A stretch of DNA of 64,000 nucleotides. Source: Halorubrum xinjiangense (lineage in GTDB: Archaea > Halobacteriota > Halobacteria > Halobacteriales > Haloferacaceae). This document shows, in pieces, positions 15,344 to 28,950 of the stretch. The stretch's first letter is position 1. The number at the start of each line of letters is the position of its first letter. A model generated the notes under the pieces. That model did not search any database. It was not told where the DNA came from and worked only from the letters and a program-made list of their open reading frames with translations. The stretch is taken from positions 124,001 to 188,000 of the forward strand of contig NZ_FNBO01000001.1 in the NCBI RefSeq assembly GCF_900102375.1, in the 5' to 3' direction. The position numbers and the translations under genes were made by a program.

Positions 15344-16672
15344 CTACGCCGCGTTACCGAACAGCTCCCGCTCGGAGTCGAACCGGTCGTCGAACCGGAG
15401 ACACGAGATGTGGTGGTTCTCGCTCACCTCGTAGGCGTCCGGTTCGTGCGTCGAACACGGCGAGGTGAACGCGTCCTCCAACGACGTCGCCGCCTCGGAG
15501 AGCTCCTCGTCGCGGAGCAGGTCGATCGCCTCCGACACCGCGGCCTCCGCGTCGTCGTCCGGCAGGCGCTCCGGGAGGTCGAACTCGGTGCGGACCATCT
15601 CACCGAACTGCTCGCGCGATGCGTCGGTCGGGGACGTCCGGGATCCTGTCACCTCGCCTTCGAGCTCCGCGGTCACCGATCCGACGGAGTCCGCCTCTCG
15701 CGTCCGGAGCTTCATGTCCATGACCGACCGCCACGTCTCCTGTGAGAGGTCGTAGTCGGCGTCGCGGATCACCTTCGGACACCGGGTGTGGAACCGGCAG
15801 CCAGACGGCGGGTTCAGCGGAGAGGGAACGGTGCCGGAGAGGAAGATCTGTTCCCCCTCCCAGAGCGGGTCCGGTTCGGGGATCGCCGAGAGGAGCGCCT
15901 CCGAGTACGGGTGATACGGCGGTTCGAACACCTCTTCGGTCGGCGCGATCTCGGCTACCTCCCCGAGGTACATAACCGCGATCCGGTCGGAGATGTGTTC
16001 GACGACGCTGAGGTCGTGCGCGATGAACACGTACGAGAGCCCGAACTCCTCTTGGAGGTTCTCCATGAGGTTGAGGATCTGCGCTTGAACGCTCACGTCG
16101 AGCGCGGAGACCGGCTCGTCACAGACGATGACCTCGGGGTCGACGGCGAGCGCGCGGGCGATGCCGATCCGCTGCCGCTGGCCGCCGGAGAACTCGTGCG
16201 GGTACCGGTTCGCGTGGCTCGGGTTCAGCCCGACGGTCTCGAGCAGTTCGTAGATCCGCTCTTTCCGCTCCTCCCCGGACGCGATGTCGTGGATGTCCAG
16301 CGGCTCCCCGATGATGTCGCCGACGGTCAGGCGGGGGTTCAGACTGGAGAACGGGTCCTGGAAGATGTACTGGATGTCCTTCCGGAGGTTCCGGAGGTCC
16401 GAACTGGACAGGTCCGTGATGTCCTCGCCCTTGTAGTAGACCGAGCCGCCCGTGGGTTCGATCAGGCGGAGCATGCTCCGGCCGAGCGTCGTCTTGCCGC
16501 ACCCGGACTCGCCGACGACGCCGAGCGTCTCGCCCTCGCGGAGTTCGAGGTCGACGCCGTCGACCGCTTTCACCCACTGCGACCGGCCGAGGAGCTTGTC
16601 GATGAACCCTCCGGTCGAGTCGTAGTACTTCTCTAACCCCTCGACGCGGAGGATCGGGTCGGCGCTACTCAT
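15344..16672 (-). CDS. ABC transporter ATPase, DppF type with split cysteine domain (locus II)
   Basis: The 442-residue ATPase contains Walker A '[10 protein letters not shown]', signature '[15 protein letters not shown]', Walker B '[12 protein letters not shown]' and H-loop 'IAHDLSVV'. The C-terminal domain opens with '[11 protein letters not shown]', is interrupted by about 120 residues, and closes with '[11 protein letters not shown]' and 'HHISCLRF'. It is the last gene of the locus II operon A-B-C-D-F on the minus strand and overlaps dppD by 8 bp. ATG 16672 ('MSSADPIL') is chosen over an ATG three codons earlier. Confidence 0.88.
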
Positions 16673-17741
16673 CGCGATCACCGTCGACGTACTGCGCGGC
16701 GGCGCCGTCCGCCGGCCCGGTCGTCTCGACAGAGTAGGTGAGCCCCTGCGAGAGCCCCTCCGTGTACTCGAGGCAGGCGGCCGAGTGCTCGGTGCCGAGC
16801 GTTGCCTCCTCGCCCGAGTCCACGTCGGTGAGCGGCGGCTCCGTCCGGGTACACTTTTCCTCGGCGAACGGACAGCGCGGGTGGAAGCTACACCCGGACG
16901 GGAGCTCGACGAGGTCGGGCATCACCCCCGGGATGGTCTGAAGCCGATCCCGCTTGTCGTTCACGCGTGGTATTGAGCTCATGAGCCCGACCGTGTACGG
17001 GTGTTTGGGGTCGTAGTACAGCTCCTCGACGGGCGCCTTCTCGACCGGTTTCCCGGCGTACATCACCATGACGCGGTCGCAGACCTCGGCGATGACGCCG
17101 AGGTCGTGCGTGATGAGCTGGATCGCCGTGTCGAACTCGTCGGCCAGCTCCCTGAGCTCGTCGAGGATCTGCGCTTCGATCGTCACGTCGAGCGCGGTCG
17201 TCGGCTCGTCCGCGACGATGAGGTCGGGGTCACACGAGAGGGCCATCGCGATGATCGCCCGCTGTTGCATCCCGCCCGAGAACTCGTGCGGGTAGTCGGA
17301 GAACCGTTCCTCGGCCTCCGGGATGCCGACGCGGTCGAGCAGCTGGATCGTCCGCGCTTTCGCCTCCTTCGAGGAGTAGTCCAAGTGGTGTTCGATCGCT
17401 TCCGCGATCTGCCCGCCGACGGTGTAGACCGGGTTGAGCGCGGTCTGCGCGTCCTGGAAGATCATCGAGATCTCGTTGCCGCGGATCGAGCGGATCTCCG
17501 ACTCGGACATCTCCAGCAGGTCCTGCCCTTTGAACAGGATCTCGCCGCTCTCGATCCGACCGGGGCTGTCGATCAGCCGCAGTACGGAGAGCGCGGTGAC
17601 GCTTTTGCCCGCCCCGCTCTCGCCGACGACGCCGAACTTTTCGCCCTTCTCGATGCGGTACGAGAGGTCGTCGACAGCGGTTACCACGCCCTCTTGCGTG
17701 TAGAAGCGGACGGTGAGGTCCTTCACTTCGAGCAGCGCCAC
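16665..17741 (-). CDS. ABC transporter ATPase, DppD type (locus II)
   Basis: The 358-residue ATPase has Walker A '[10 protein letters not shown]', signature '[15 protein letters not shown]', Walker B '[12 protein letters not shown]' and H-loop 'ITHDLGVI'. The oligopeptide C-terminal cysteines are intact and unsplit ('[15 protein letters not shown]', 'HSAACLEY'). Translation starts at a GTG that shares one base with the TAG stop of dppC (TAGTG), so the genes are probably coupled. It forms the nucleotide-binding pair with the DppF encoded immediately downstream. Confidence 0.9.
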
Positions 17742-18793
17742 TACTCTTCACCCCCGCGACCGACACCCGTCTGCTGTGCGTCCAGTGCGTCGTTGATACC
17801 GTCACCGATCATGTTCATAGACATCACGAAGATGAAGATCGCCGCGCCGGGATACACCGTCGCCCACCACGGGATCTGTCCGCCCGGTCCCTGGATCAGC
17901 GTCGACCGCGTCGCGTTCAGCATCGTTCCCCACTCGGCCGAGCTGGGGTCTAACCCGAGGCCGAGGAACCCGAGCGCGGCGACGCCGATGACGACGCTAC
18001 CGATGTTGAGCGACGCCAGAACGATGAGCGGCGGCATCGCGTTCGGCGCGATGTGTCTGAACACCACCGAGCGGTCGCGCGCGCCGAGCGCTTTCGCCGC
18101 CAGCACGTACTCGTTTTCTTTGATCTTCAGCACTTCTCCTCTCACGAGGCGGCCGTACCCGGCCCAGCCGAAGAGGCTGAACGCTAAGACGAGCTGCCAG
18201 TAGCCGCCGCCGAGGATGGCGACGATGATGAGCGCCAGGATGAGTCCGGGGAACGCGAAGATGGTGTCGACGATCCGCATCATCAGCTCGTCGACGTTCC
18301 CGCCGTAGTAGCCCGAGACGGAGCCGTAGATCAGCCCGAAGGAGGCCGTCAGCGCGACGACGACGAACCCGATCGAGAGGCTGTACCGGCCGCCGACGAG
18401 GAGCCGCGAGAACAGGTCGCGGCCGGAGCCGTCGACGCCCATCGGGTACTGCCACGACGGCGGGTCGTACACGTTCACGCTCGAATCGACGCCCAGATAC
18501 AGGATCGTCGTCGGGTCGTACGGCGCCAGCGAGAACGGCTGGACGACCACGCCGAACATCTCGATAGGACGTGCGAAGAACGACGCCAGCGCCATCACGA
18601 GGACGACGAGAAGTGCGCCCATCGCGGAGCGGTTCCGCTTGAACTTCCGGAAGCCGCGCCGCCAGCGACCGACCGTTTCGCCGCTCGATTCGTCGGTCCA
18701 GTCGGACATCGGCTCTCGGTCTCTGACGCGGTCCGAATCGAAACCGGAGATGCGGATCCGGCCGCGTTCGTCGTGAGTGTGTCGGTCAGTCAT
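17741..18793 (-). CDS. ABC transporter permease, DppC type (locus II)
   Basis: The 350-residue permease has a long hydrophilic N-terminus of about 60 residues, one helix, a periplasmic-side loop with 'YPMGVDGSGRDLFSR' and five further helices. The EAA loop is 'LAAKALGARDRSVVFRHIAPN'. This is the ordinary DppC form without the extra helices and cysteine loop of loci I and III. ATG 18793 ('MTDRHTHDERG') is used; it overlaps the end of dppB by 8 bp. Confidence 0.88.
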   Translation of the reverse strand: MTDRHTHDERGRIRISGFDSDRVRDREPMSDWTDESSGETVGRWRRGFRKFKRNRSAMGALLVVLVMALASFFARPIEMFGVVVQPFSLAPYDPTTILYLGVDSSVNVYDPPSWQYPMGVDGSGRDLFSRLLVGGRYSLSIGFVVVALTASFGLIYGSVSGYYGGNVDELMMRIVDTIFAFPGLILALIIVAILGGGYWQLVLAFSLFGWAGYGRLVRGEVLKIKENEYVLAAKALGARDRSVVFRHIAPNAMPPLIVLASLNIGSVVIGVAALGFLGLGLDPSSAEWGTMLNATRSTLIQGPGGQIPWWATVYPGAAIFIFVMSMNMIGDGINDALDAQQTGVGRGGEE

Positions 18794-19742
18794 ATCGGAT
18801 CCTCGGGTCGAGCGCTGCGTACACGATGTCGGCAACGAGGTTGGCGAGAATGACGAAGAACCCGGTGAACAGGGTGATCGCCATCACGACGTTGATCTCC
18901 CGCTGGTTGATAGCGTTAATGAACTCCCGTCCCAGTCCCGGCCAGTTGAACACGGTTTCCACGACGACCGAACCGGCCACGATGGACGCCGTGAGCGTCG
19001 CCGCGAGCGTGACGACCGAGATGAGGGAGTTCCGCAGTACGTGTTTGAGGATCACCGTCCGCTCGGGAAGCCCCTTCGCGCGGGCGGCTGTGACGTACTC
19101 CTTGTTCAGTTCCTCCGTCATCGAGGTCCGCATCACGCGCATGATACTCGCCGCCGAGGCGGTCCCGATGGTGATCCCCGGGAGGAGCAGATACCACAGC
19201 ATCTCAGGAGAGATGAGGGACTGCCTCGAAGGGGCCAACACGGGGAAGAGACCCAGATACAGCGAGAATATCAGGATCAACATGAGCCCGAGCCAGAAGT
19301 TCGGGATCGAGATCCCGGACAGGGCGAGGAAGCGGCTGACGGTGTCCCCGAGCTGGTCTTTGTTGACCGCGGCGTAGATCCCCGCGGGGATGGCGATGAT
19401 CAGCGCGAACGCCCACCCGAAGAGACCGAGCGCGATGGTCTCGGGAAGCCGTCTCCACACGATGTCGGAGACTTCACGGCCCGTCTGGAGCTCCAGACCG
19501 AAGTCGCCGACGAGCACGTTCGAGATCCATTCGAGGTACTGCTGCCACACCGGGCCGGAAAGTCCCCACCGCTCGCGGAGCGCGGCCTCTTCGGCCGCGC
19601 TCACGTCCGGATTCAACGCGACGAGTCGGGTGACCGGGTCGCCGGGAGTCAGGTGGAACAGCCCGAACGTGATCACCGAGACGCCGAACATGATCGGGAT
19701 GATCGACAGCGTTCGTTTCAGTATGAAGCGTTGGAGGCTCAT
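18786..19742 (-). CDS. ABC transporter permease, DppB type (locus II)
   Basis: The 318-residue permease begins 'MSLQRFILKRTLSIIPIMFGVS' and has six helices. The EAA loop is 'VTAARAKGLPERTVILKHVLRN', and the C-terminus 'ADIVYAALDPRIRYD' is classical for DppB. The binding-protein gene lies 87 bp upstream on the same strand, and the downstream genes overlap, so A-B-C-D-F form one operon. Substrates of the family are di- and oligopeptides, nickel or sugars. Confidence 0.9.
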   Translation of the reverse strand: MSLQRFILKRTLSIIPIMFGVSVITFGLFHLTPGDPVTRLVALNPDVSAAEEAALRERWGLSGPVWQQYLEWISNVLVGDFGLELQTGREVSDIVWRRLPETIALGLFGWAFALIIAIPAGIYAAVNKDQLGDTVSRFLALSGISIPNFWLGLMLILIFSLYLGLFPVLAPSRQSLISPEMLWYLLLPGITIGTASAASIMRVMRTSMTEELNKEYVTAARAKGLPERTVILKHVLRNSLISVVTLAATLTASIVAGSVVVETVFNWPGLGREFINAINQREINVVMAITLFTGFFVILANLVADIVYAALDPRIRYD

Positions 19743-19829
19743 CGTTGCGTGGGTCTCACGGCGGGTTCAGTTGTCAGTAGACGTAATGAGGTCATTTGTG
19801 TGATCGAAACGGTGTCTCCGCGGAACGCC

Positions 19830-21812
19830 TCAGTTGTCCGCGGCGACCTGCTCGAGCAGCTCTTCGGCGCGTTCGACGTTGTACTCGTTCATCGGCCGAA
19901 GTTCGTCTTCCAAGGCCTCGGCGTCGGCGGTCCCGCTCCCCTGTGCCAGCTGCGGGATGGGCGTCCACGCCGGACGACCGTAGCCGCTGAACACGTTCTC
20001 GACGATCCGTTCGCGCGGGATCAGGTGGTTGATCGCCTGCCGCAGGCGCGCGTCGTCGAACGGCGCGACGTTGACCGGGTACTGGATGTACTCGTAGCCG
20101 CCCGTCTCGATCTCGTAGAGGAGGAAGTCCTCCGAGGAGTCGAACTCGTCGAGCGTCGACGAGTTCAGGCCGTACGTGGAGTCGATCTCCCCGTTCTGGA
20201 GCGCACCGGATCGCGTGGAGTCGTCGGGAACGATTTCGACCTCGAAGCCGTCGATGACCGGGCCGTCCGGGAAGTCGCTGGAGCCGTCGAACCAGCTGAA
20301 CGCCTCGCTGACGCCCTTCTGTTCGGTCCAGTAGTTGTCGAACTTCGTGACCTCGAAGTACTGCTCGTCCTCGAACTCGGAGAACTCGTAGGGGCCCGTT
20401 CCGATGGGAGTGTTACCCTCCCGCGGGTCGATGGTACCCTTCTCGACTTCCCCGATCTGCGTGGCGTTGAGGATACTCAATGCGGGCAGCGAACGCTCAG
20501 CCTCGGCGTCGGCGACTTGGGCGTAGATGTCGACGGTGTACTCGTCGACCTCAACCGCGGTTAGCACCGAGTCGAACGTCTGCGGGGCCAGCACGGAGTT
20601 CTCGGCGTACTCGTAGGTCGCGACTACGTCCTCCGCTGTGAGCTCGTCGCCGTTGTGGAACTCGACGCCCTCCTGCAGGTTGTACCGGTACTGCATCCCG
20701 TAGGTACCGTCTTCGGCCGCCTCGACGGCGTCGTCCGGGAGCAGAACGCGAACTTCGTCGTCCTCCGCGGGGCTGTCCTCGGGGTGCTGGACGATGACCT
20801 GCTCGTCCGTGTCGACCGCGCCCTCCTCGGTCGTGCCGACGGTCGACATGTAGTCCGCGTACGCGGTCCGGTCGACGTCGGTCGTGTCAATCAGCTCGTA
20901 GCTCTCGGCGAGCCACGGGTGGACGTTACCCTGCGTGTCGTTGGCGATCAGGCCCTCGTAGATGAAGCCCTGCGCCAGCGTCGACGTCGTGTCGCTGCTG
21001 TGCGGCGGGTCGAACGACTCGATGTTCGCGCCGATGGCGATGGACATCGTCCCGCCCTCGGTGAGATCCGAGAGGTCGGAGTCGCCCGCGGCGTTATCGC
21101 GGTCGATCCACATGATCTGCTCGTCCTGCGGCGCGAACATGTTGTAGCTGTACATCCCCTCTTGGAAGGGCCACATCTCGAACCCGTGGATGTCGGTGTT
21201 CGAGACGGAGGTGGCGAGGTTGAAGTGGGTGATCGAGCTGTACCGCTCCTCGGCGAGGTAGTTCCAGACCTCGTCGTAGCGCTCGCCGCGGAGCTCGGAG
21301 TCCTCGGCCACCTCGACGCCGTACCGCGCGTCGTCCATCATCTCGTCCAGCTCGGAGTCGCTGATCCCGTTGAGGTTACAACACGCGCCGATGTTGCTCG
21401 AGTGGTGGAGGGCGTTACAGAAGCTCCCGGGGTTGAACGTCCCAGACAGCCCGATACAGGGAACGTACCCGTTGTTCTGGTACTCGGGGTCGAGCACGCG
21501 ACCGACGTACGTGTTCCACTCGTACGTCTCGACCGTCGTGTTGAAGTAGCCGGTCTGCTCCATCGACTCGGCGATCAGCTCGACCATCTGGAGCCGGTCG
21601 CTGTTGTCGGCGTTGACTTCGAGCTGAACGTCGAGGGGGAAGAGCTCTCCGTCGCCGCCGTCGCTGCCATCCGAACCGTCGCCGCCGTCACCGCCGTCGG
21701 ATTGGCCGCCACACCCGGCCAGGCTGGCCGCTCCAGCCGCTCCGATGGTGGCGATAACGTTGCGTCGATTTATAGTTTGATTGTTGTTAGATGCGTTGTG
21801 CCGACTTGGCAT
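19830..21812 (-). CDS. Dpp-type substrate-binding lipoprotein with apparently circularly permuted domain order (locus II)
   Basis: The 660-residue protein has a Tat-type signal (Arg16-Arg17) and lipobox 'SLAGC' with Cys34, then a Gly/Asp linker. Residues 57-243 match what normally ends a family 5 binding protein ('LEVNADNSDRLQM', 'VETYEWNTYVGRVLDPEYQ', 'NALHHSSNIG', 'ERYDEVWNYLAEE'). The usual N-terminal beginning appears only at about 253 ('GGTMSIAIGANIESFDPP', 'FIYEGLIA'). The chain ends at 644-660 with 'YNVERAEELLEQVAADN', which in ordinary members directly precedes the segment now at the N-terminus. The protein therefore looks circularly permuted behind its signal peptide. A TATA-like ATATTATAG lies about 25 bp upstream. 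Confidence 0.85.
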   Translation of the reverse strand: MPSRHNASNNNQTINRRNVIATIGAAGAASLAGCGGQSDGGDGGDGSDGSDGGDGELFPLDVQLEVNADNSDRLQMVELIAESMEQTGYFNTTVETYEWNTYVGRVLDPEYQNNGYVPCIGLSGTFNPGSFCNALHHSSNIGACCNLNGISDSELDEMMDDARYGVEVAEDSELRGERYDEVWNYLAEERYSSITHFNLATSVSNTDIHGFEMWPFQEGMYSYNMFAPQDEQIMWIDRDNAAGDSDLSDLTEGGTMSIAIGANIESFDPPHSSDTTSTLAQGFIYEGLIANDTQGNVHPWLAESYELIDTTDVDRTAYADYMSTVGTTEEGAVDTDEQVIVQHPEDSPAEDDEVRVLLPDDAVEAAEDGTYGMQYRYNLQEGVEFHNGDELTAEDVVATYEYAENSVLAPQTFDSVLTAVEVDEYTVDIYAQVADAEAERSLPALSILNATQIGEVEKGTIDPREGNTPIGTGPYEFSEFEDEQYFEVTKFDNYWTEQKGVSEAFSWFDGSSDFPDGPVIDGFEVEIVPDDSTRSGALQNGEIDSTYGLNSSTLDEFDSSEDFLLYEIETGGYEYIQYPVNVAPFDDARLRQAINHLIPRERIVENVFSGYGRPAWTPIPQLAQGSGTADAEALEDELRPMNEYNVERAEELLEQVAADN

Positions 21813-22420
21813 ACAACATGCTACAACTGACTACTATAATATGTTACGATACGTCGGTAAACCGTATTCAACACTCATAATTGGACAAATTCAATTTATA
21901 CGACGAAAACAAGTTTGAAATAGGAATGGACAGGCTCAGCAGGTGACAATCAGACATGAATAATGATTATGGAATGAATCAATATTTGCGATTTGAAATG
22001 ATACTGCTTCAGAATACGTCAGCTTTGGCACAACAATGTCGCCGTGTATCGGATCGAGAGACGCGGCGCGACGGACGGAGTTCATGTTGGCGGAACCCCG
22101 TGAGATTGCTCTCCCAGACGAACCGTAACCCGGTCACGCGTGGTGAAACGGTCCGCGGTCGCCGGTCGCAGGCCTCGACAGTCGGCGAAGTCCCGCGACG
22201 AGTGGTGACCTCAACCCGGCGGTGAGTAAACGGCGACCGCGTCGACGCGTTCTCACAGAAGCGGGTCTCGAGACACTCAGATAAGAGATATTCTACATTA
22301 TCTAACCCCGAAGTATCGAACGAAGGCAAGAGAGCCCCCATATCTGAGTAAACCGACAGATCTATCGGAGATATGATAGTGAGTCTGAAGTTTTTTGTAT
22401 ACGCGTTCGTAGCATGGTGT
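21813..22420. promoter_or_regulatory. AT-richer divergent control region between Dpp loci II and III
   Basis: This 608-bp region is clearly lower in GC than its surroundings, especially 21820-22010. It must hold the promoters of both divergent dpp operons. An inverted repeat AGATAA-N13-TTATCT lies at 22279-22303. A second, CATATCT-N23-AGATATG, lies at 22339-22375. TTGTATAC at about 22395-22402 is a good TATA candidate for the plus-strand operon. The open frames in it are short and lack familiar motifs, so I call no gene. Confidence 0.45.
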
Positions 22421-24352
22421 ATGTCATCTCGAGACATGGAAGATGGTGACGATCCCCGACACGTCAACCGGCGGCAATGGCTCTCCGCGCTCGGCCTCGC
22501 CGGCGCGGTAACGCTTGCCGGCTGCTCCGGAAACGGCGGCGGCGGCGGCGGCGGCGACGGCAACGACACCGACGACGGCAGTGACGGCGGCGATGCGACC
22601 ACGCAACAGGACGTGTACGCGACGGCGAGCGCCGCCTCGTTCACCACGCTTAATCCGATATACAACACCGAGAACGGCGCCGGGAACGCGATCGCTCGGA
22701 CGCTCGATCAGGGGTACACGTTCGACGAGAACAATGAGTACGTTCCCCTGCTCTACGACATGTCCACCGAAGACGGTGAAGTGTGGACGTTCGAGGTCCG
22801 CGAGGGTCTCGAGTTCAGCGATCCCTACGGCGAGGTGACCGCGAGCGACTTCGTCTACCTGATTCAGGAGGTCCATCAGAGCAGCTGGGCGAACTCGGCC
22901 GCGACGACGAGCTGGCAGGGCGTCACCGTCGAGGAGACCGGTGAGTACGAGTTCGAGGCGACGCTGGAGAGCCCGTCGCTCCTCTGGCCCGAGAGCTACG
23001 ACCCGCTGCTGTACCCGATCCCGCAGGAACTCCTCGAACCGTACGTCGAAGAGGAAGACACGGAGGGTCTCCAAGAAGACGAGGAGCTTCTCGAACTCCA
23101 GTTCGCCGGAAACCTCGGTCCGTACGTCCTCGACGAGTGGCAGCGGGACGCCGGGACTCGGTACAGCCGAAACGACGACTACTACCTCCAAGACGTCGAC
23201 GAGCTTCCGGACGTCTTCAACGACGCGCCGTACTTCGAGGAGGCGGAGATCCGAGTGATCGAAGAGGAGGCCTCGCGGCTCGGTGCGCTGGAGACGGGCG
23301 AGGTCGACTCGGCCGCGATTCCGCCGGAGCAGGTCGAGTCGTACCAGAACAGCGAAGAGATCTACGTCAACCGGATCCCGCAGCCCTACAACGAGAAGAT
23401 CTCGGTCAACATGCGCGACAACGGGTGGAACACCGGTCCGGGTAACATGTTCCGGCACACCCCGTTCCGGCAGGCCATGGCGGCCGCGATCGACAAGGAA
23501 GGACTGATCCAGGGCGTGTTCCGTGACTTCGCCGAGACGCATTTCACGTGGCAACCTCGGTTCAGCGAGTTCTACCCGCCGGAAGAGGAAATCCCGCAGT
23601 TCGGCGTCGGCGAGAACTACGGTAGCGAGGTGGCCCGCGGACTGGCCGAAGAGGCGTTCGCGGAGTCAGAGTACGACTACGGCTTCGACGGGGACGCGAT
23701 GGTCAACCCCGACGGGGACCAGATTCAGCTCGACATCTACCACAGCGCGGGCCAAGACACGGAACAGCTGATGGCCGATTTCATCGCACAAGAGCTCGGC
23801 GAGAACCTCGGCATCGACGTGACCGTCGAGGCCATCGACGGCACCAGGTTTAACAACGAGTACTGGACCACGAGCGACTTCCCCACGCCGGAGACGAACG
23901 ACGAAGGCGAGGTCACCGAGGTTCCGGACGAACTCGTCGATACGGTGAACGGAGAAGAGGTCGAGTGGACCGCTCCCACGTCGACCAATCCCGGCCCCCG
24001 TAACGTCACGACCAGCCAGGACTGGGACATGTCGGTCGTGTTCGGGCTGAACACGTACCCGCGGAACCCGATCACCAACAACGCCTTCTTCGACGGCCCG
24101 ACTGCGTTCTACAACCCGGTGGGCTACTACCCCGGGTTCGACGCGGAGTCGCTGTTCGAACAGGCACAGGCGGCGACCTCGCAGGAGGAACTGGCCGACG
24201 CACTCGTGGAACTGTTCGCGAATCTCGCGGAGGAACAGCCCTACATCATGCTCGCGTTCCCCGACAGCACGGTCGGGTACCGCGAAGGACTCGAGGGGCC
24301 GATCGAGAACTTCTCGAACGGCTGGAACCTGCCGGCGTGGAGATACGAGTAG
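22421..24352 (+). CDS. Dpp-type substrate-binding lipoprotein, normal domain order (locus III)
   Basis: The 643-residue protein has a Tat-type signal ('NRRQWLSALGLAGAV'), lipobox 'LAGC' with Cys35 and a Gly/Asp linker. The mature domain follows the standard family 5 order: N-terminal 'ASFTTLNPIYN', then 'LRQA'-like 'FRQAMAAAIDKEGLI', then the late segment 'LDIYHSAGQDTEQLMADF' and the C-terminus. It is a useful contrast to the permuted protein of locus II. Start ATG 22421 sits about 23 bp after TTGTATAC and gives a sensible signal peptide; ATG 22373 and 22436 are alternatives. It opens the A-B-C-D-F operon. Confidence 0.88.
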   Translation: MSSRDMEDGDDPRHVNRRQWLSALGLAGAVTLAGCSGNGGGGGGGDGNDTDDGSDGGDATTQQDVYATASAASFTTLNPIYNTENGAGNAIARTLDQGYTFDENNEYVPLLYDMSTEDGEVWTFEVREGLEFSDPYGEVTASDFVYLIQEVHQSSWANSAATTSWQGVTVEETGEYEFEATLESPSLLWPESYDPLLYPIPQELLEPYVEEEDTEGLQEDEELLELQFAGNLGPYVLDEWQRDAGTRYSRNDDYYLQDVDELPDVFNDAPYFEEAEIRVIEEEASRLGALETGEVDSAAIPPEQVESYQNSEEIYVNRIPQPYNEKISVNMRDNGWNTGPGNMFRHTPFRQAMAAAIDKEGLIQGVFRDFAETHFTWQPRFSEFYPPEEEIPQFGVGENYGSEVARGLAEEAFAESEYDYGFDGDAMVNPDGDQIQLDIYHSAGQDTEQLMADFIAQELGENLGIDVTVEAIDGTRFNNEYWTTSDFPTPETNDEGEVTEVPDELVDTVNGEEVEWTAPTSTNPGPRNVTTSQDWDMSVVFGLNTYPRNPITNNAFFDGPTAFYNPVGYYPGFDAESLFEQAQAATSQEELADALVELFANLAEEQPYIMLAFPDSTVGYREGLEGPIENFSNGWNLPAWRYE

Positions 24353-24391
24353 GACGACTCGTTCTGACCACACGGCATTTAACATATCAAC

Positions 24392-25366
24392 ATGGGATTT
24401 GGAAGGTACGTAACCGCTCGCGTTCTCTGGGCCGGAGTTGTATCGCTGGTCATCACCACGATCACGTTTCTGCTGCTGTCGGCCGCACCGAACCCCGACG
24501 TCCAGCAGGCGGCCACGCAGGCGGCGCTCCAAGGGGGGAACCCCGCAGAGGCGACCGAGCGGGTCAGAGAGCTCCGAGGGCTCGATCAGCCGCTCTACGT
24601 GCGGTACTTCGATTTCATCCGAGGCGTCTACACGCTCGACTGGGGCTGGTCCGAGAGCCGGAGCCAACCGGTGCTCGAGGCGGTCGGAAGCGCGCTGTAC
24701 TACACCGCGCAGTACTCGATCCCGTGGACGATCCTCACGATCATCCTTGGACCGCTCGTCGGCGTGTACTCGGCTGCGAACATGTACAGCTGGAAGGACC
24801 ACGCCGCGACAGGGTTCGCGTTCTTCGGATACGCCATCCCGAACTTCTTTTTCGGGATCATCCTGCTTCTGGTCTTCGGCGTCTGGCTCCAATTCATCCC
24901 CGTCACGTACAACACCGACGTGGCGGTGTTCAGCGTCGAAAACGCCGTACAGCTCACGATACCGGTGTTCGTACTCGTCACGGGCTCGATCGGGGCTGTC
25001 ATGCGGGTCTCCCGGAACGAGTCGGCGGAGTTCCAGAACGCGGACTTTATGAAGACGGCGAAGGCGAAGGGCGTCTCACCGCTTCGTGCGTACGCGTACC
25101 ACGTCATGCGGCCGACGCTCGTTCCGCTTTCGACGACGCTGGTCGGTCAGCTGCTCGCGCTGTTCCTCGGGTCGTCGCTGCTCGTGGAGGTCGTCTTCGC
25201 GATCCCCGGGCTCGGCCGGCTGACGTACAAGGCGCTGATCGCACAGGACACGAACCTCGTGTTGGGCACGACGCTGTTCTTCACGTTCGTCGCGGTCGTC
25301 GGGAACCTCCTCGAAGACATCGTGTTCACCGTACTCGACCCGCGAATCAGCTACGATGACAGATAA
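24392..25366 (+). CDS. ABC transporter permease, DppB type (locus III)
   Basis: The 324-residue permease has six helices, the EAA loop 'KTAKAKGVSPLRAYAYHVMRP' and the C-terminus 'VFTVLDPRISYDDR'. The first extracytoplasmic loop contains 'YTLDWGWSESRSQPVLEAV', similar to the DppB of locus I ('LDWGSSMSTGEPVF'), which groups loci I and III. It starts 39 bp after the binding-protein gene and is followed by dppC after 14 bp. Confidence 0.9.
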   Translation: MGFGRYVTARVLWAGVVSLVITTITFLLLSAAPNPDVQQAATQAALQGGNPAEATERVRELRGLDQPLYVRYFDFIRGVYTLDWGWSESRSQPVLEAVGSALYYTAQYSIPWTILTIILGPLVGVYSAANMYSWKDHAATGFAFFGYAIPNFFFGIILLLVFGVWLQFIPVTYNTDVAVFSVENAVQLTIPVFVLVTGSIGAVMRVSRNESAEFQNADFMKTAKAKGVSPLRAYAYHVMRPTLVPLSTTLVGQLLALFLGSSLLVEVVFAIPGLGRLTYKALIAQDTNLVLGTTLFFTFVAVVGNLLEDIVFTVLDPRISYDDR

Positions 25367-25380
25367 CTCACCGAACAACG

Positions 25381-26565
25381 ATGGCAACTAAGAAATCCGA
25401 AGAGTTCGACCAAGTCGACTGGAACGAGATCTCGCGGTCGGGGAGGTTCGACCTGTCCATCAACTCGATCGGGATGCTGGTGACGACGCTCCCGCTCGTG
25501 CTGCTGGCCGTGTACGACTGGCAGTTCCTCGGCGAGCGGACCCCGACGTTCCAGTTCGTCGGGGTCGACCGAGGGCTCGAGTCGGTGGACTTCTTTTTCA
25601 TCTTCACGCTCCTGCTGGCGTTCTGGTTCCTCGTCTTACCGCTGTACCAGAACCCGCGAATGACGCGGTACTACTGGAAGGAGTTCAAACAAAACCGCCC
25701 GGCGGTCGTGAGCCTCGTCTGGCTCGGCGTCGTGTTCGTCGGCGGCATCGTCGGACCGATCGTGATGGACCCGCCCCAACAGGAGCTGCTCATCGCTTAC
25801 CAGCCGCCGGTGTTCACCTCCGTCGTGGACACGACGCCGGCGACCTGCGTCGGCGAGGTGATGAACGGGCGGTGTTACGGAACGTGGGAACACCCGCTCG
25901 GGACGACGAACGCCGGCAAGGACGTGTTCACGATGATCGTCTACGGGATGACGATCAGCATGCAGATCGCCTTCATCACGACGACCATCGTCGCGACGAT
26001 CGGGATCTCGTTCGGGACGCTGAGCGCGTACGCGGGCGGCTGGGTCGACGAGATCATGATGCGGTTCGTCGACATCATCCTCTCGTTCCCGACCTTCCTG
26101 ATGTTCCTGCTCATCCTGTACATCTACGGCGGGGGACTCGGGATGTTCATCGTGGTTTTCTCGCTTTTCGCCTGGGGCGGCACGGCCCGGTACGTCCGGA
26201 GCAAGTCGCTGTCGATCTCCGAAGAGGAGTTCATCAAGTCCAGTCGGATCAGCGGTGCAAGCACGTATCACGTCATCCGCGGCCACGTGGTCCCGAACGT
26301 CGCGAGCAGCATCATCACGCAGCTCACGCTGCTGATCCCCGGCTTCCTGCTGTTCGAGGCGCAACTGGCGTTCCTCGGCATCGGCGACTCGACGGTCCCC
26401 TCGTGGGGACAGCTCATCTCCGCCGGCCGGAGCGACCTCTCGTTCGCTCCGTGGATCGTGTTGGCGCCCGGTATCGTGCTGTTCTTGACCATCCTCGCGT
26501 TCAACTTCCTCGGTGACGCGCTGTTGGACGCGTTGAACCCCGAAGCGGAGGCGGAGAACACATGA
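25381..26565 (+). CDS. ABC transporter permease, DppC type with extra N-terminal helices (locus III)
   Basis: The 394-residue protein has two additional hydrophobic segments before the standard DppC core. Its long extracytoplasmic loop has two cysteines ('ATCVGEVMNGRC') followed by 'YGTWEHPLGTTNAGKD'. The EAA loop is 'KSSRISGASTYHVIRGHVVPN'. The match to locus I in length, extra helices and paired cysteines indicates a common subfamily; the cysteines could form a disulfide on the cell surface. Its stop overlaps the dppD start as ATGA. Confidence 0.88.
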   Translation: MATKKSEEFDQVDWNEISRSGRFDLSINSIGMLVTTLPLVLLAVYDWQFLGERTPTFQFVGVDRGLESVDFFFIFTLLLAFWFLVLPLYQNPRMTRYYWKEFKQNRPAVVSLVWLGVVFVGGIVGPIVMDPPQQELLIAYQPPVFTSVVDTTPATCVGEVMNGRCYGTWEHPLGTTNAGKDVFTMIVYGMTISMQIAFITTTIVATIGISFGTLSAYAGGWVDEIMMRFVDIILSFPTFLMFLLILYIYGGGLGMFIVVFSLFAWGGTARYVRSKSLSISEEEFIKSSRISGASTYHVIRGHVVPNVASSIITQLTLLIPGFLLFEAQLAFLGIGDSTVPSWGQLISAGRSDLSFAPWIVLAPGIVLFLTILAFNFLGDALLDALNPEAEAENT

Positions 26566-27623
26566 CGTCCGACGATCAGCCACTGCTCGAGGTCGAAGAC
26601 CTCACGACGACGTTCAGCACCGACGACGGAACGCTCACCGCGGTCGACGGGATCGACTTCGACGTCGAGACCGGGGAGACCGTCTGTATCGTCGGCGAGT
26701 CCGGGTCCGGAAAGACGGTCGCGACGGAGTCGATCACCAAGATCATCAAGACGCCGCCGGGGCATATCGAGGGGACGGTGCGGTACAAAGGCCGCGACCT
26801 GCTGTCGCTTCCCGAGTCGGAGCTTCGGCAGATCCGTGGCAACGAGATCGCGCACATCTTCCAGAACCCCCAGGAGGCGATGAACCACTGCTACACCGTC
26901 GGGTGGCAGATCACCGAAGCGCTCCAGATCCACCGGGACGTCTCCGACGAAGAGGCCCGCGCGAAGGCGGTCGACCTCATGGACCGCGTCGGGATCGCGA
27001 ACGCGAGTTCGCGGTTCGACGACTACCCCCACGAGTTCTCCGGCGGGCAGAAACAGCGCGTGATGATCGCGATGGCGCTCGTCGGTGACCCCGACCTGCT
27101 CATCGCCGACGAGCCGACGACCGCGCTCGACGTCACGGTCCAGGCGCAGATCCTGCGGCTCCTCGACGACCTCCAAGACGAGTTCGACATGGGGGTCCTG
27201 TTTGTGACGCACGACCTCGGCGTCGTCGCGGAGATCGCCGACCGGATCGTCGTGATGTACGCGGGGAAGGTGATGGAGCGGGGCGACGTCCTCGACATCT
27301 TCGATCGCCCCGCACACCCGTACACCCAACAGCTGTTAGAGTGCCTGCCGGAGTTCGGCGGGACCGGCGGGGGGATACCGGGGACGCTGCCGGATCCGCA
27401 CGACCCGCCGGACGGGTGTCGCTTCGCGCCCCGATGCGAGTACGCCGAGGAGGCGTGTCGCACCGGCGAGCAGCCCGAGGAGGTCGAGGTCGCCCCGGAC
27501 CAGCAGGTCTCCTGCGTCCACTACGGGCCGGGCGGAAACCCCTCGATAGTGAGAAGCGAGGGGCACGGCCCCGGCGACGGCGCAACAGGCGGCGACAGCG
27601 AGGTGGGTCCCGCCGATGACTGA
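26562..27623 (+). CDS. ABC transporter ATPase, DppD type (locus III)
   Basis: The 353-residue ATPase has Walker A '[10 protein letters not shown]', signature '[15 protein letters not shown]', Walker B '[12 protein letters not shown]' and H-loop 'VTHDLGVV'. The oligopeptide-type cysteine domain is intact ('[15 protein letters not shown]', 'VSCVHYG'). It overlaps dppC by ATGA and dppF by 8 bp, so all genes of the operon are tightly coupled. Confidence 0.9.
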
Positions 27624-28950
27624 GCCGCTGCTCTCGGTCCGCGACCTGAAGAAACACTACCCGATCCGCAAGGGGCTGTTCAACCGACAGGTCGGCGCCG
27701 CACGCGCCGTCGACGGGATCAGCTTCGACATCGAACAGGGCGAGACGCTCGGGCTCGTCGGCGAGTCCGGCTGTGGGAAGTCGACCGCGGCGAATTCAGT
27801 CATCCACTTAGAGGAGCCGACCGCCGGAGAGGTCATCTTCAACGGAAACGGACGCGAGGGCGCGACGCGAAACACCGACGGAACTCACCCCAACGACGTG
27901 ACGAAGTTCGACGACGGCGAACTGATGGAGTTCCGGCGAGGCGCACAGATGATCTTCCAGGACCCGTCCTCGAGCTTCGATCCGCGGATGCCGATCGGGA
28001 ACGCCGTTGGAGAGCTCCTCAAGGTTCACGGGATGAGCGACCGCCACCGGCGCCGCGCGATCGTCGAGGACCTGCTCGAACGCGTCGGCCTCTCGGCGAA
28101 CGACTTCGACCGGTACCCGCACGAGTTCTCCGGCGGACAGAAACAGCGAATCGCGCTCGCGCGCGCGCTCGTGTTGAACCCGGACCTCATCATCGCCGAC
28201 GAGCCGGTGAGCGCGCTCGACGTCTCCATTCAGGCGGAGATCCTCTCGCTGATCGACGACCTACAAGAGGAGTTCGGGCTGTCGCTACTCTTCATCAGCC
28301 ACGACATGTCCGTTATCCGCCAGATCTGCGACCGCGTGGCCGTGATGTACCTCGGCGAAATCGTCGAGATCGGGCCGGTCGAGGAGATCTTCACGAACCC
28401 GCAACACCCCTACACCGAGGCGCTGCTGTCCTCGATTCCGACGCCGGACCCGCGGGCGGAGCTCGGCGGCATCGAGCTGAGGGGCACCGTCCCGAGTCCG
28501 ACGAATCCACCGAGCGGCTGCCGGTTCCACACCCGGTGCCACAAGGTGATCCAGCCAGAGGGGGTCGACATCGATCAGGGCGACTGGCGGGGGCTGTTGA
28601 ACTTCCGTGAGAAAGTCATCACCGGCGAGATAGACATCGAACAGGTCCGTGAGAACGTCGCCGGCGGCGGGACCGAACCGACCGACTCAGAGGTTCGAGC
28701 GGAGGTCCGGCGCGAGTTCGACATCAGCGAGACGGTCGACGACCCGGACCTCGAGGAGACGCTCTCAGAGGCGATGAACCTTCTATTGGAGGACAACGCC
28801 GAGATGGCGGGGGAGTTCCTCTCGGAGGAGATCACGACGCCGTGCGCCGAGACGGAGCCCGGGACGACGGTTCACGCACCCGATCACGAGTCCGCCTGCC
28901 TCAGGCACGAGAGCCGAGCCGCCGCGGAGCCGAACCCCGCGGACGACTGA
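27616..28950 (+). CDS. ABC transporter ATPase, DppF type with split cysteine domain (locus III)
   Basis: The 444-residue ATPase has Walker A 'GESGCGKSTA', signature '[15 protein letters not shown]', Walker B '[12 protein letters not shown]' and H-loop 'ISHDMSVI'. After Walker A there is an extra loop of about 15 residues ('NGREGATRNTDGTHPND'). The C-terminal domain starts '[11 protein letters not shown]', is interrupted by about 110 residues, and closes with 'TTPCAETEPG' and 'ESACLRHES'. It ends the locus III operon. Confidence 0.9.
   Translation: MTEPLLSVRDLKKHYPIRKGLFNRQVGAARAVDGISFDIEQGETLGLVGESGCGKSTAANSVIHLEEPTAGEVIFNGNGREGATRNTDGTHPNDVTKFDDGELMEFRRGAQMIFQDPSSSFDPRMPIGNAVGELLKVHGMSDRHRRRAIVEDLLERVGLSANDFDRYPHEFSGGQKQRIALARALVLNPDLIIADEPVSALDVSIQAEILSLIDDLQEEFGLSLLFISHDMSVIRQICDRVAVMYLGEIVEIGPVEEIFTNPQHPYTEALLSSIPTPDPRAELGGIELRGTVPSPTNPPSGCRFHTRCHKVIQPEGVDIDQGDWRGLLNFREKVITGEIDIEQVRENVAGGGTEPTDSEVRAEVRREFDISETVDDPDLEETLSEAMNLLLEDNAEMAGEFLSEEITTPCAETEPGTTVHAPDHESACLRHESRAAAEPNPADD

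Follow-up and report, generated by a model that had tools for sequence, protein, structure and literature searches.

The closest published precedent for the protein described here is Tp0684 (MglB-2) of Treponema pallidum, a naturally circularly permuted sugar-binding lipoprotein classified as 'Type Ic / cluster Bc' (PMC4990184). Tp0684 has the cluster B sugar-binding fold with permuted N-lobe strands and an added hinge crossing, shows weak homology in its permuted part and retains ligand-induced closure (PMC4990184). The binding protein that we analyzed, encoded in a 64,000-nucleotide stretch of Halorubrum xinjiangense DNA (the window), resembles Tp0684 in being, on our reading, a naturally permuted, membrane-tethered ABC-importer receptor. 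Unlike Tp0684, it belongs to cluster C, is highly identical to unpermuted orthologs and comes from a clade with an apparent reversal. The Type I / cluster B fold does not apply to it, since the best sequence and fold matches were all to family-5, cluster C proteins. With the family-5 proteins (SBP_bac_5, PF00496; DppA, OppA, AppA, NikA) it shares homology in both halves, a predicted bilobal fold and an operon that also encodes a pair of permeases and a pair of oligo_HPY ATPases; it differs from them by a rotated segment order, new termini that are placed in the second lobe and fused old termini. No report of a permuted family-5 or haloarchaeal binding protein was found in the open-licence PMC literature, and a report elsewhere is not excluded. 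The recurrence and likely reversibility of the rotation are what is unusual here; a permuted cluster B protein has already been published (PMC4990184).

The window protein (ORF 21812..19830, 660 amino acids) lies on the minus strand, which the original prediction had left unstated, as do all window features below unless stated otherwise. With a probability of about 0.9, we interpret the gene product as a functional, naturally occurring circular permutant of the substrate-binding lipoprotein of Dpp/Opp-type ABC importers, transport itself being inferred. We could demonstrate the swapped order, the conservation of the swap, purifying selection and a conserved operon. A Tat-type (twin-arginine) signal peptide with lipobox, recognized in the sequence by its NRR...SLAGC motif and with Cys34 as the lipidated residue, occupies residues 1-34 (21711..21812), a region that matches other lipoprotein genes of the genome; the expectation that this leader had stayed in front was correct. 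Between the lipid anchor and the relocated segment lies a Gly/Asp-rich linker, likewise read from the sequence (residues 35-56, 21645..21710).

The collinear segment order of family-5 proteins was absent downstream of this leader. PF00496 matched with 207.4 bits, against a gathering cut-off of 32.4, over residues 297-655, equivalent to profile positions 2-275 of 368. In phmmer searches against the PDB, residues 251-309 aligned to positions 19-77 of AppA (1xoc) and residues 364-653 to positions 71-339, while residues 46-215 aligned to AppA 348-506: the missing end of the family sits at the front of the chain. These three non-collinear blocks were found without any curated reference, and a profile built from the 47 permuted orthologs returned the identical blocks in the identical swapped order. 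Residues 57-234 (21111..21644) are the usual C-terminal third of a family-5 protein, as judged from the match to AppA 348-506 and from 63-66% identity to the C-terminus of normal-order orthologs. Residues 253 onward are the usual N-terminal two thirds (253-643, 19884..21056), which begin with EGG/GGT and are covered by PF00496 and AppA 19-339. When all rotations were scanned against 6 normal-order homologues, the local alignment score peaked at residues 240-246; rotation lifted the score from 1441 to 2087 for homologue L076 and from 1319 to 2012 for L086, and one fixed rotation improved the score to every normal-order homologue (41/41). The protein meets what defines a natural circular permutation, namely that the old termini are joined, that a continuous chain is opened elsewhere and that nothing large is lost. 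The original prediction of a circularly permuted Dpp/Opp binding protein was thus upheld by the non-collinear structure matches, by 47 permuted against 41 normal homologues and by a halved sequential fold match (see below). The homologue alignment that it had suggested gave swapped blocks and scores that rose upon rotation, and the segment boundaries that it had placed were right to within about ten residues (C-terminal segment 57-234, joint 235-252, normal start about 249-253).

The structure prediction that had also been suggested yielded a confident AlphaFold2 fold for the permuted protein (pLDDT 92.3, pTM 0.90, alignment of 47 permuted sequences), as it did for the normal relative L086 (pLDDT 92.8, pTM 0.89). 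Input alignments for the permuted model came from the permuted family only, and the high-salt state may differ from the model. Foldseek, which aligns in sequence order, found the same PDB family for both models. The top matches of the permuted model were family-5 structures that aligned over about 440 columns, with a target-normalised TM of about 0.45-0.52, whereas L086 reached mostly 0.75-0.86 over 577-630 columns, with 0.81-0.86 for its top matches and 0.81-0.85 for the first five; sequential alignment to DppA/AppA structures recovered about half of the permuted fold. Foldseek found no full-length PDB match to the permuted model, so no solved permuted family-5 structure is apparent and the PDB appears to contain none. 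Evidence for the bilobal cluster C fold is limited to the confident AlphaFold2 model and to its Foldseek match to family-5 structures, which is partial and sequential. Because no superposition stands behind the fold comparison, the retention of the usual clamshell fold is an inference, as is that of the receptor function. The best-supported function is that of a lipid-anchored receptor of a peptide/nickel-type importer; its ligand is unknown and there are no binding data.

The old C-terminus is connected to the old N-terminus by the joint WIDRDNAAGDSDLSDLTE (residues 235-252, 21057..21110). With few exceptions among the permuted orthologs, this joint is 17-21 residues long; its sequence is conserved among them, and in the window protein it was modelled with a pLDDT of about 87-92. 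Normal proteins end with ...APQDEQVIYLDRD and start with ...DFxDLQEGGTL, whereas permuted proteins read W-[IL]-D-x-DLSDLxEGGTL across the joint. The short joints here, and the still shorter ones, a few residues long, of an independently permuted lineage, are consistent with the proposal that the usual termini lie close together in the fold. At the other end of the chain, the last 17 residues (644-660, 19833..19883) form the helix YNVERAEELLEQVAADN, with which the model ends (helix at mature-part residues 591-604). In normal orthologs this helix runs uninterrupted into the segment that is relocated here (...ERAEELLEEVVDDLGLDTPIEIQLEVNADN), just as had been predicted. The cut region is unbroken in normal proteins (EELLEEVVDDLGLDTPIEIQLEVNADN), whereas permuted proteins stop just past the helix and begin at the strand; the cut falls inside ERAEELLEEV-DLG-PLEV, with few residues lost. 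The opening of the chain separates a helix (AppA about 339) from a strand (AppA about 348-360) and, judged by AppA positions 339-348 together with the textbook domain limits of OppA, lies in the second lobe (domain III of OppA/DppA). We infer that the lipid tether, formerly on the first lobe, is now on the second.

Downstream of the binding protein, Pfam identified a DppB-like permease (BPD_transp_1 and BPD_transp_1_N, 18786..19742), a DppC-like permease (BPD_transp_1 and OppC_N, 17741..18835) and two ATPases with ABC_tran and oligo_HPY domains, one DppD-like (16665..17741) and one DppF-like (15344..16681). The divergent neighbour on the plus strand (22373..24352; its start may be 22421) is a family-5 binding lipoprotein that served as an internal control. 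It has the normal order, in agreement with the original prediction (PF00496 at residues 130-503, profile 9-339). Positions 15344-28950 of the window hold two complete, divergently oriented Dpp-type operons that stand back to back; the binding protein is permuted in one and of normal order in the other.

Searches of haloarchaeal genomes, with the fetched ORFs classified by segment order, supplied the homologues, of which 47 distinct ones are permuted and 41 distinct ones have the normal order. Identity to the nearest normal-order orthologs was 57-64% for the large (N) part and 56-66% for the small (C) part, within an overall range of 55-66%. Where flanks were available, the same four partner genes (permease-permease-ATPase-ATPase) followed permuted and normal genes alike, with a partial set only at some short loci and in a few divergent cases. 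Normal-order proteins are also encoded elsewhere, in orthologous operons of five genes, with identity up to about 64%. The normal-order orthologs L076 (G256), L077 (G215) and L086 (G075) have the same four partners, similar signal peptides and about 57-67% identity per half; they differ from the window protein by their canonical N-to-C order.

The history of the rotation within this clade depends on two loci at equivalent operon positions, the normal-order L086:5614-7608 (minus strand, G075:C3) and the permuted L093:6068-8056 (plus strand, G054:C3). The permuted proteins clustered strongly in trees of the two parts concatenated after rotation. L086 and L093 came out as sisters whether the tree was built from the joined parts, from either part alone or from the four partner genes (SH-aLRT 91-100, the only support measure for the partner-gene tree). 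The two proteins are 72.8 and 72.1% identical in their two parts and 72-90% in their partners, with nearly identical signal peptides. A tree with the permuted proteins as a lone clade without G075 was rejected (AU test, p 0.009); one with the permuted proteins and L086 as a single clade improved on the free tree, with a margin of 7.3 log units. The joint of G054 scored a mean of 32.5 (maximum 47) against other permuted joints and 16.9 (maximum 23) against normal N-termini, and its tail a maximum of 51 against permuted and of 36 against normal proteins. Owing to this permuted-specific joint and tail sequence in G054, a single origin of the rotation in the clade followed by one return to normal order in G075 is favoured and seems to us the probable history. 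The clade may alternatively have rotated twice, once in the G054 lineage and once in the rest, with G075 having kept the ancestral order and no reversal at all. We consider this unlikely but cannot discard it: the no-reversal tree, although 6.9 log units below the free one, survived the test (p 0.36), and parsimony assigns two gains the same cost as a gain and a reversal. However, the tree that unites the permuted proteins with G075 is 14 log units better, and the G054 joint PxDTDLSDLQEGG and tail EEVIEDRGY are common to permuted proteins and absent from normal ones.

The window clade (subfamily A) is not the only permuted lineage. A junction profile retrieved subfamily B, permuted haloarchaeal proteins of about 550 amino acids and roughly 35% identity. 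Their cut precedes the helix, whereas that of clade A follows it, and their joint consists of a few residues. Subfamily B comprises permuted (L120, L121, L122, L126, L128-L132) and normal members (L123, L124, L125, L127), the normal-order relatives being 40-49% identical and likewise in five-gene operons. In phmmer, residues 246-534 of the permuted L130 matched 51-334 of 5u4o and residues 62-189 matched 362-484. In the tree, B was separate from A, with its permuted and its normal members forming one clade each; subfamily B was permuted independently of the window clade. In the deep lineage C, all 20 newly fetched haloarchaeal loci (L133-L152) were permuted, as was one protein of the window's own genome. 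This protein (G000:C13:25184-27022; L008:1354-3312, minus strand) has profile positions 287-362 upstream of 3-283 and is, besides the window protein, the second permuted one among the genome's 7 PF00496 binding proteins. Alphaproteobacterial plasmid relatives (L160:4920-6518, L161:4899-6584, L162:4893-6569), annotated merely as 'ABC transporter substrate-binding protein', aligned with the permuted query in unchanged order over about 90% at 30-37% identity, and the Nitratireductor protein gave the same swapped PDB blocks. Lineage C is old, widespread and common to archaea and Alphaproteobacteria. From these lineages we lean, without being certain, towards the view that rotation of family-5 proteins is a recurrent and reversible event in evolution: three or more lineages, of haloarchaea and Alphaproteobacteria, would share a single hot spot of the second lobe at or near which the chain was opened, and a descendant in one of them would have reverted in the same operon position.

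Whether membrane tethering drove the rotation, as speculated for Tp0684 (PMC4990184), appears doubtful. Rotation would then have been selected because it shifts the anchor to the other lobe. It necessarily displaces the anchor point, and the haloarchaeal members examined carry a Cys after the Tat signal; the normal-order sister proteins, however, are tethered as well. The hypothesis is further weakened by three alphaproteobacterial lineage C proteins that have cleavable non-lipid signals without a lipobox. Domain shuffling, a possibility raised by the discoverers of Tp0684 (PMC4990184), would mean that another family-5 gene donated the front segment. Weakly supported forks at which the N-part and C-part trees disagree leave it a very slim chance, but both halves (N 57-64%, C 56-66% identity) have their closest matches in one and the same set of normal-order orthologs, no such protein retains a second copy of the segment, and G054 pairs with G075 in both part trees. 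An assembly or annotation artefact can be dismissed, and with it the mis-assembly that would have refuted the original prediction: the window does belong to a draft genome of 25 contigs, but the same order recurs in dozens of genomes that were assembled independently, several with as few as 1-3 contigs (G206, G043, G085, G297), and in records of Halorubrum trapanicum, coriense, aidingense and tebenquichense, and the conserved order, the shared operon position and a dN/dS of 0.10-0.23 among Halorubrum orthologs exclude both mis-assembly and a pseudogene.

As to the rotation of a single gene, which we prefer, the chain has been rotated in place with its operon position unchanged, a short conserved linker fusing the old C-terminus to the old N-terminus. 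We infer that this would have happened once in the clade by tandem duplication and subsequent loss of ends, and that one descendant, G075, may have rotated back to normal order. Tandem duplication with end loss is the standard route to permutation and would permit reversal, too. The suggestion that this route was taken here remains plausible but unproven, since none of the 123 N-part and 116 C-part ORFs from the loci examined was a duplication intermediate in which either segment occurred twice.

The inference of a natural circular permutation usually rests on comparisons of distantly related proteins. In the present case, one gene occurs both permuted and unpermuted in orthologous operons at 57-73% identity, and joints, cut sites, the order of events and even reversal are thus legible in the sequence and open to testing by gene swaps. 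Beyond what had been predicted, the rotation is conserved, recurrent in the family and apparently reversed once. This suggests that a receptor in need of ligand closure and permease docking tolerates, repeatedly, a cut in one lobe and anchoring from the other. A warning concerns the tools: profile methods cover only some two thirds of the length of a protein permuted in this way, and sequential structure aligners underrate them.

A separate observation concerned the relocated segment (21111..21644), in which a vicinal Cys pair (CCN) within NPGSFCNALHHSSNIGACCNLNG was invariant in both the permuted and the normal alignments. The pair lies near a conserved His and possibly has a metal or disulfide role.
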